From positions 372,001-436,000 of the forward strand of contig NZ_SOSC01000002.1 of NCBI RefSeq assembly GCF_005049285.1: 64,000 nt of DNA, in the 5' to 3' direction. Below are positions 56,001 through 59,047 of this stretch, piece by piece (position 1 is the first letter of the stretch; each line of letters begins with the position of its first letter). The stretch is from Halorientalis salina (GTDB lineage Archaea; Halobacteriota; Halobacteria; Halobacteriales; Haloarculaceae). Below the pieces are notes generated by a model. It was not told the DNA's origin. It was given only the letters and a program-made list of their open reading frames with translations, and searched no databases. Both the position numbers and the translations under genes were made by a program.

Positions 56001-56726
56001 ATGACACGTCGACGGACAGTACTGCGGACGGGATCGGCGCTGGTGGCACTGGGGTTCGCCGGGTGCAATGCGCTCTCGTCCGAGTCGGACAGTGAGGACG
56101 ACGGCGAAGACCCGGACGCCGACGAGGAAGAGACCACCTCGGCGGGACCCCGAACGACCGATAGCGCGGACGGACCATTCGAGAACGGATCAACGGAAAC
56201 CGAACAGAGGGGCGGCGAGGGAGCGCTCAGTCGCTTTCAGGTCGTACAGGCCATCGGCCGGAAGACCGACGCCGACGGGGACACAGCGATCGGTGCCGTG
56301 GAGCTGGTCGTGACGAAGGCCCAAGGGACCGGGGACATCGATCTGTCGAACGTGACGATCCAGTGGGTCGACGAGACGGACCAGGAAACGATCGTGTACG
56401 AGCGGGTCGACGGTGGCGACAGTGGATCGTTCGCGTACGAGGCGCTCGAAGACGAAGACGGATCGCTCGCAGACGGCGATGCCCCGGTCATCAACAGCGA
56501 AGCCGACAGAGCGCGGCTCGTCATCGACATCGGCGCCGCCGAGTCGGGGAACGCGATCAGCGAGGCGTATTCGACGCCGGTGACCGACGAGACAACCATC
56601 AAACAGCACGGGCTGGGCGAAGGTGAGATGGCCTCCCTCCAGCTCGTGACTGCCGCCGGGGTCGCGACGACGATCCGACTCACCGTGCCAGACTCGCTCG
56701 ACGGCACGGAAGTCGTGCAATTCTGA
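56001..56726 (+). CDS. Tat lipoprotein carrying an archaellin-like beta domain
   Basis: A 241-residue protein. The N-terminus TRRRTVLRTGSALVALGFAGC is a twin-arginine signal ending in a lipobox Cys near residue 22, followed by an acidic spacer to about 75. The rest parallels haloarchaeal archaellins: SRFQVVQAIGRKTDADG, AVELVVTKAQGTGDIDLSNV, TIQWVDETDQET, RARLVIDIG and the C-terminal ATTIRLTVPDSLDGTEVVQF. The hydrophobic N-terminal helix required for filament assembly, and the prepilin peptidase site, are missing; the protein is lipid-anchored instead. Whether it decorates or regulates archaella, or is an unrelated user of the fold, is open. Confidence 0.83.
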   Translation: MTRRRTVLRTGSALVALGFAGCNALSSESDSEDDGEDPDADEEETTSAGPRTTDSADGPFENGSTETEQRGGEGALSRFQVVQAIGRKTDADGDTAIGAVELVVTKAQGTGDIDLSNVTIQWVDETDQETIVYERVDGGDSGSFAYEALEDEDGSLADGDAPVINSEADRARLVIDIGAAESGNAISEAYSTPVTDETTIKQHGLGEGEMASLQLVTAAGVATTIRLTVPDSLDGTEVVQF

Positions 56727-56767: not shown

Positions 56768-57226
56768 ATGGACGACGCCGGCATCTACGCGCGTGACTCC
56801 CCGCTTCTCGACTGTGCCGTTCAGGTCGGGATCGCACAGGGCCGTGTCATCTCGGTTTCCTTTCCGCGGACCCCCGAGGACGACGCCGAGGCCGACCACG
56901 AGTTGCTCGACCGCATCGAGGCCTACCTGGAAGGCGTCGAGGAGGACTTCACCGACGTCACCGTGGCGCTGACGGTCCCGACCGACCAGCGGGAGGTTCT
57001 GGAGACAGTACGTGGCATCCCCTACGGCACCCAGATCGGCGTCGAGAAGATCACGAGTATGGCCCCCGGTCTCGACCCGGAGAGCGAGGACGACCAGCGA
57101 CTCGTTCGCGAGGCGCTCCAGAACAATCCCGCTCCGCTGTTGATCCCCGACCATCGCGTCCGCGACGGCCCGAGCGCCGCCCCGGCCGAGGTCGCACAGA
57201 AACTCCGGTCGATCGAAGGGCTCTAG
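56768..57226 (+). CDS. MGMT-fold alkyltransferase-like protein lacking the acceptor cysteine
   Basis: A 152-residue protein with the MGMT C-terminal module: TDQREVLETVRGIPYGTQIG (wHTH recognition region), then LVREALQNNPAPLLIPDHRV. True O6-alkylguanine transferases have IPCHR; here the Cys is Asp at position 128 (codon 57149-57151). So it cannot accept alkyl groups by the usual chemistry and belongs with alkyltransferase-like (ATL) proteins, which flag alkylated guanine for repair. ATLs usually have Trp or Ala there, so Asp is unusual. It is convergent, by four bases, with the next membrane gene. Confidence 0.83.
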   Translation: MDDAGIYARDSPLLDCAVQVGIAQGRVISVSFPRTPEDDAEADHELLDRIEAYLEGVEEDFTDVTVALTVPTDQREVLETVRGIPYGTQIGVEKITSMAPGLDPESEDDQRLVREALQNNPAPLLIPDHRVRDGPSAAPAEVAQKLRSIEGL

Positions 57227-57913: not shown

Positions 57914-59047
57914 ATGACACGACGAACACTCGTTCTCGTCGCCCTCACAGCAGTCGTGCTTGCGGGGTGTCTGGGCGGACCAGGAACAGAGACGACGACC
58001 GACCCGATGGACAGCAATGGAACGGCCACCGTTTCGAGTGAGAACATTCCCGGTATCTCGGATGGAACGCTCACGAACGCGACGGCGTTGGCACGGGCAA
58101 ACGAGGCGAGCCTGACCGAGACTGGGGGTGCAGTCCAGATTCGTCGGGATGGGCCATCCAGTCAGTCGACGGTTGACCTCGTGGTCGGAGCGGGTCTCAC
58201 GACGTACCAACTCACGGGGTTACAATCCGCGGGCGACGACACGGTCGACGCCGATATCTGGAGTAACGAAACGACGCGAGTCATCCGAACGAGCTACGAT
58301 GGGGAGTACAATTACCGGACGACCGACCGCCGTGACGACCGTTTGAACGTCCTTGTGGCAGTCGAAGACTATCTCGCAGCCGGGAACTTCACGGTAGCCA
58401 ACGAGTCGACCGGCAACGGGACCGTCGTGTTCACTGCCGATACGTTCGTCACACCGACTGACAGTCACGGTCCGCTCACGAACGTCAGTTCACTCGATGG
58501 CCGTCTCGTCGTTAGAGAGTCCGGACTGATTCAGAGCCTCACAGTCTCCGCGACCACCGAGGAAGAGAGTGGATCGTACAGCTACGAACTGCTCCGGACG
58601 GGCGTCGACCGTGTGGCCAAGCCGGACTGGTTCGACGACGTGCCAGCGGGTGCGACACTGCAGACACAACTCAACGTGGACGTCGAGAACAGTTCGTATC
58701 TCGTTGTCCGAAACGAGGGTGGCGATCACGTCCCGAGCAACACCACCATCAGTGTCACCTCGAACAACACGACCAGCACGGCGACCCTCGATACGTCGCT
58801 TATGGCCGGAGACACCCGGTACGCGTATATCGACGCGACAACTGGATCGCTCCAGTTGACTGCGGACCGTCCGACTGCGGGGACTGTCGATCCCGTGACC
58901 AGTCCGGTATCGGTGTCCATCACGACCGATGATGGAGCGTCCCTCTACAGTGCGGGCATGGCCTGGAGTTCCGAAACCGCGTCCGCGCCGGAAACCGGTG
59001 GCTCTAGCGGGAGTGCTGGGGAATCGAGTCCGACTGGCAGTTCGTAG
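57914..59047 (+). CDS. Secreted lipoprotein, haloarchaeal (DUF7537-like)
   Basis: A 377-residue lipoprotein: a Sec-type leader (MTRRTLVLVALTAVVLAGC) with lipobox Cys at residue 19, a GGPGTETTTDP spacer, then a beta-rich domain from about 55 resembling outer-envelope lipoproteins in which long antiparallel sheets carry lipid-like cargo (LolA/LppX-like layout; inference). A central N-glycosylation-rich stretch (several NxS/T) and a C-terminal Ser/Gly/Thr tail follow. Its codon use is less GC-extreme than its neighbours. It is flanked by an oligo-T terminator-like tract. Confidence 0.8.
   Translation: MTRRTLVLVALTAVVLAGCLGGPGTETTTDPMDSNGTATVSSENIPGISDGTLTNATALARANEASLTETGGAVQIRRDGPSSQSTVDLVVGAGLTTYQLTGLQSAGDDTVDADIWSNETTRVIRTSYDGEYNYRTTDRRDDRLNVLVAVEDYLAAGNFTVANESTGNGTVVFTADTFVTPTDSHGPLTNVSSLDGRLVVRESGLIQSLTVSATTEEESGSYSYELLRTGVDRVAKPDWFDDVPAGATLQTQLNVDVENSSYLVVRNEGGDHVPSNTTISVTSNNTTSTATLDTSLMAGDTRYAYIDATTGSLQLTADRPTAGTVDPVTSPVSVSITTDDGASLYSAGMAWSSETASAPETGGSSGSAGESSPTGSS

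Follow-up and report, generated by a model that had tools for sequence, protein, structure and literature searches.

The gene at positions 56001 to 56726 (+ strand) of the window, by which we mean the whole 64,000-nucleotide stretch of Halorientalis salina DNA under analysis, is an open reading frame of 241 amino acids plus a stop codon and encodes a predicted lipid-anchored protein with an archaellin domain. The protein opens with MTRRRTVLRTGSALVALGFAGC, and SRFQVVQAIGR, AVELVVTKAQG...IDLSNVTIQW, RARLVIDIG, and ATTIRLTVPDSLDG follow later in the sequence; an earlier note on this DNA had quoted the motifs and the coordinates of the reading frame exactly. Residues 1 to 22 (MTRRRTVLR...GFAGC; 56001 to 56066, + strand) form a Tat-type lipoprotein signal, in which TRRRTVLR carries the RRR motif and the lipobox FAGC ends the signal with Cys22. 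When we aligned 11 lipoproteins of this kind, the leader was conserved and M1, R4, A20, G21, and C22 were invariant. One of the 11, G001_b, a tandem copy in its genome, has a single Arg and a Sec-like lipoprotein signal. Following the signal is a 52-residue linker (residues 23 to 74; 56067 to 56222, + strand) that is acidic (35% Asp/Glu and 25% Ser/Thr) and, from its composition and low pLDDT, predicted to be disordered. Past residue 25, no 19-residue segment was hydrophobic enough for a membrane helix on the Kyte-Doolittle scale, the mean peaking at 1.25 within a beta strand. The N-terminus is as the earlier note had described it, namely an RRR-type Tat signal with a lipobox Cys and no assembly helix.

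The remainder of the protein, residues 75 to 241 (56223 to 56723, + strand), is an archaellin beta-sandwich domain according to Pfam, the AlphaFold2 model, and the PDB matches of that model. Pfam PF01917 (Arch_flagellin) scored 43.6 bits against a gathering threshold of 29.5 (E 5.2e-11), placing the claimed likeness to archaellins far above noise; the NCBIfam flagellin model gave a weak match, at 27 vs. 210 bits. The protein covers positions 34 to 161 of the 162 in the PF01917 profile and, since the match begins only at position 34, the signal and the first half of the assembly helix are absent. Identity to the archaellins encoded in the same genome is 48 to 49%. These alignments and profile matches show that the protein is an archaellin in which the N-terminal signal and assembly helix have been swapped for a Tat lipoprotein signal and an acidic linker. 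By the same comparisons it falls outside the archaellin class, having the beta domain but neither a class III prepilin-type signal nor the N-terminal helix. Lipidation at Cys22, export by Tat, and display at the cell surface are predicted from the leader.

We modeled the protein with AlphaFold2 from an alignment of lipoproteins and archaellins. The domain was predicted with a pLDDT of about 80 to 96 over most of its length, and the N-terminal third was unstructured. The best PDB matches of the model were archaellins, led by 9eq7 from Halobacterium salinarum (Foldseek E 1.3e-11), which superimposed on the model with a Z score of 18.6 and 1.5 Å across 131 residues; Sulfolobus ArlF (Z 10.7) and ArlG (Z 10.2) both scored below the archaellins. 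A control model from an alignment of lipoproteins alone was of lower confidence (mean pLDDT 66.9), and archaellins still ranked first (E 5.9e-10), with Ig-like proteins at noise level only. The structure comparison that the earlier note had proposed agrees with an archaellin fold in both models.

The gene lies on contig C16 between purA and an MGMT-like (DNA_binding_1) gene at 56768 to 57226 on the same strand (+), the latter a co-directional neighbor by synteny that does not imply a functional link. The arl/che cluster of the same genome is on contig C17 with three archaellins, another archaellin is found on C11, and an archaellin fusion on C1. The window gene is thus located outside the arl cluster, a weak criterion for archaellins given that the one on C11 is a true archaellin. 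A search for related lipoproteins and their gene neighbors, also suggested in the earlier note, revealed a conserved Halorientalis locus before the MGMT-like gene. One or two such lipoproteins were present in seven of eight Halorientalis genomes, and in all seven the MGMT-like gene was directly downstream and co-directional. The other flank consists of trp genes in the six relatives with the lipoprotein and of purA in the window genome. Three genomes (G004, G002, and G001) carry two tandem lipoproteins, and in G007 one of the two copies is intact and the other frameshifted. In L036 (8026-8735), the second lipoprotein of its Halorientalis genome, a frameshift separates the signal frame from the archaellin-domain frame, as in a pseudogene or an assembly error. 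The eighth genome, G006, has a clean empty site, with 88 bases from trpC to the MGMT-like gene. It is the sole Halorientalis genome without the lipoprotein, and its archaellins (L113 and L114) belong to a different, distant clade. Orthologs of the first paralogue gave dN/dS values of about 0.28 to 0.39 and are therefore under constraint. The tree indicates that the paralogue conserved in five of the other genomes had far diverged from archaellins before becoming conserved.

To place the window domain, we used a maximum-likelihood tree of beta-domains. The domain fell inside the Halorientalis archaellin clade (99/98), beside the archaellins of its own genome, and the same-locus lipoproteins of other species branched outside that clade. 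Orthology with the same-locus domains was rejected despite the matching position and signal type (AU p 0.003, for a positional-ortholog group named from synteny and tested after the first tree had been seen). In addition, the surface loop NAISEAYSTPVTDETTIK (56550 to 56603, + strand), identified from alignments, matches the loop NAIGNAYGESITDDNTIR of the archaellins from the same genome and is missing from the same-locus lipoproteins of other species. It follows from the tree placement and the common loop that this locus either received an archaellin domain anew or had an earlier one exchanged. These comparisons show the window domain to be derived from the archaellins of its own host lineage. 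The transfer is not very recent, given the 48 to 49% identity and an end branch of about 1 change per site. A shared descent of the window gene with the fusion on C1, in contrast, was not rejected (p 0.27).

Anchored archaellin domains are found on a variety of other carriers. For instance, L053:1356-2486, from another genus of the same family, is a Tat lipoprotein that bears two archaellin domains in tandem, and L041:6785-8401, the fusion on contig C1, is a 539-residue Tat lipoprotein with a C-terminal archaellin domain and a helix remnant (PF01917, 62.4 bits). Carriers with an Rv0361-like domain and an archaellin domain include a Tat lipoprotein (L105) and a protein with a zinc ribbon and a membrane helix (L092). 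L087 is a DUF7537 lipoprotein with an archaellin domain, and L083 is a short membrane protein with one, adjoining a true archaellin. Another lipoprotein of the window, at 57914 to 59047 (+ strand; MTRRTLVLVALTAVVLAGC), shares 29% identity with the DUF7537 carrier of L087 across 257 aligned columns; its C-terminal domain matched no Pfam family. In a tree of 81 sequences, the state changed between anchored and filament 11 times (10 to 12 in bootstrap trees), at least six changes being forced by the starred branches, although long branches make individual placements uncertain. A single clade of all anchored archaellin domains was rejected (AU p 5e-5). As read from these trees, membrane-anchored archaellin domains arose repeatedly in haloarchaea, near the archaellins of each host clade, and such independent swaps suggest a role for the domain beyond the filament. 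It follows that not all PF01917 matches are filament subunits. We also considered scattered chromosomal archaellin genes in other families as candidate lipoproteins and rejected them, as nearly all retain the assembly helix. Six genomes of the genus coded g73 (G359, G339, G323, G363, G422, and G284) have five to seven archaellin-like genes each, dispersed and not clustered, and those that were fetched retain the assembly helix.

Several of the fusions open with remnants of the helix, as seen in LFLNTAGFLQTEAEETGEQSHEQVTNRL (L041), NAGGFLQSSAEESGEQAAEQVTNRL (L092), and QTGGFLQT (L057), for which the archaellin counterpart is INTAGFLQS...EQVTNRL. The junction in several fusions lies at NTAGFLQ, just beyond the membrane half of the archaellin helix, such that the membrane half is replaced and the outer (second) half is retained; the window gene has no helix remnant at all. 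The carrier of L041 belongs to no known family, is related to the transmembrane proteins L056 and L057, and its family is present in 46 of 146 family genomes. Some members end in a pilin module, of which L100, L095, L097, and L098 scored above the Pfam cut-off for Pilin_N (PF07790) and L102, from the window genome, scored below it. All five are Tat lipoproteins in which the hydrophobic helix is retained and the prepilin signal is gone. By these profile matches, archaellin and type IV pilin modules alternate on one carrier family, our strongest hint that the module may select the filament or exit site.

Reuse of the archaellin beta domain on a membrane anchor, as the earlier note had proposed, is backed by sequence, fold, tree, and synteny. 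For its function we tentatively favor, from sequence comparisons, a surface-tethered archaellin module that docks to the archaellum, its stator, or the envelope passage. The protein would cross the membrane already folded through Tat, receive a lipid at Cys22, and stay attached to the outer side of the membrane, a flexible tether presenting the archaellin domain at the S-layer or inside it. If the tethered domain keeps contacts of the archaellin-archaellin type, it could dock to the filament or to the ArlF/ArlG stator at the site where the filament crosses the envelope. It could then work as an additional anchor or bushing, or as a lipoprotein associated with the filament. In the related fusions, the archaellin domain would direct other surface proteins to this site. 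The earlier note had further held that the protein cannot polymerize like an archaellin; this is reasonable with the helix absent, but oligomerization of another kind is possible, given that helix-truncated ArlG, itself a duplicated archaellin, forms filaments via domain stacking (PMC8667602).

The docking reading is consistent with the archaellin fold and family of the domain, with its place in the genus archaellin clade (99/98), the loop held in common with own-genome archaellins, and the rejected positional-ortholog clade (p 0.003), and with the repeated rise of anchored domains near the archaellins of each host clade. It also fits the fusions that retain the second half of the helix and replace the membrane half, and the constraint on the first-paralogue orthologs (dN/dS about 0.28 to 0.39). 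Alternation of archaellin and Pilin_N modules on one carrier is expected if the C-terminal module selects the filament, ArlF/ArlG show that a copied archaellin can become an envelope-bound component (PMC8667602), and the only Halorientalis genome lacking the gene has archaellins from another clade. However, that same genome is a member of the genus that does without the gene, the gene lies away from the arl cluster, the paralogue of five of the other genomes was far from archaellins before its conservation, and recruitment of host archaellins could merely reflect the nearest available source. More broadly, filament-subunit domains (archaellin or type IV pilin) might serve haloarchaea as exchangeable docking units at the C-terminus, through which lipid-anchored surface proteins reach the archaellum or pilus. 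Fresh recruitment from the filament genes of the host would preserve the match, and the window protein would be the minimal form of anchor, tether, and archaellin module; we regard this generalization as rather unlikely in its full extent.

The leading rival, a quite possible one, is that the domain was reused more generally as an Ig-like display domain that is stable in halophiles and serves adhesion, the binding of ligands, or S-layer packing, without a link to the archaellum. The position of the gene outside the arl cluster beside housekeeping genes points this way, as do a first paralogue that is strongly diverged yet constrained and the variety of carriers, which range from DUF7537 and Rv0361-like domains to a zinc ribbon and lipoproteins of no known family. 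General reuse alone, however, leaves unexplained why recruitment occurred repeatedly from the archaellins of each clade and why archaellin and pilin alternate on one carrier family. Drift would make the many independent origins simple, with the 3′ ends of archaellin genes often joined by recombination to the export signals of other genes and retained for a short time with no function, and it would accommodate the frameshifted copy and the empty site in one species. We consider it very improbable, since the frames are intact, the dN/dS of orthologs is well below 1, and one locus is conserved across seven genomes.

Two further readings link the domain to the archaellum in other ways, and we hold neither to be likely. 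A membrane-bound archaellin head could act as a decoy or receptor mimic that titrates archaellum-binding viruses or blocks filament-guided entry, as might be suspected from a sequence that follows the host archaellins down to a surface loop and from the patchy presence of the gene, with one frameshifted copy. This is improbable, as a 2021 review (PMC7911016), in the passages available, names no established archaellum-binding virus, the protein matches no defense family, its neighborhood is conserved and not a defense island, and a surface-exposed decoy could aid a virus instead of hindering it. Specifically, the PADLOC anti-phage models gave no match to the protein at E 1, which leaves room for a decoy of a kind that they do not cover, and no relatives were found in viral contigs. 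There is similarly little likelihood that the protein is an assembly factor, that is, a chaperone or base plug on a tether, which keeps archaellins close to the motor or stops the filament from growing further. It has the same fold and predicted exported compartment as archaellins and a long flexible tether, but the gene is not in the arl operon, and in the searches made this lipoprotein type was absent from archaellin-bearing relatives in other genera, which argues that archaella do not require it in general.

A duplicated archaellin is the proposed origin of the archaellum stator (PMC8667602). The anchored domains are independent, more recent cases, in which a membrane anchor has taken the place of the assembly helix of an archaellin, and they may serve as natural experiments in how a filament subunit becomes an envelope part, testable in culturable haloarchaea. 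If the docking reading is true, they represent a class of archaellum-associated surface proteins that searches of arl operons overlook.

Among known systems, the haloarchaeal archaellins (ArlA/FlgA/ArlB, PF01917; 9eq7) are closest in the fold and sequence of the beta domain, at 48 to 49% identity to those of the same genome. The window protein differs from them in having a Tat lipoprotein signal and linker in place of the class III signal peptide and N-terminal helix, and in the placement of its gene away from the arl cluster. ArlF and ArlG, described as products of archaellin duplication whose stator extends to the S-layer (PMC8667602), share the derivation from archaellins, a non-filament role in the envelope, and the fold (Z 10.7 and 10.2), the envelope location of the window protein being predicted from its leader. 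They themselves retain an N-terminal membrane helix, are encoded in the arl cluster, and are ancient, whereas the window protein has a genus-level archaellin origin. Homology to ArlF/ArlG in particular was considered and rejected: the window protein has no helix, neither of the two ArlF/ArlG-type proteins encoded in its genome matches it significantly in sequence, and the tree groups it with archaellins. The twin-arginine signal, lipobox, and acidic Thr-rich linker are those of haloarchaeal Tat lipoproteins, whose usual cargo is a substrate-binding or enzyme domain and not an archaellin domain. The Pilin_N (PF07790) lipoproteins, such as L100 and L097, likewise combine a Tat-lipoprotein carrier with a filament-subunit domain that lacks the prepilin signal, but they carry a pilin in place of the archaellin domain and largely retain the pilin helix. 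We found no description of such proteins in the open-access literature consulted, subscription journals and preprints lying outside its scope. With its features combined in no family described in that literature, we place the window protein as a variant of the archaellin-derived envelope proteins.
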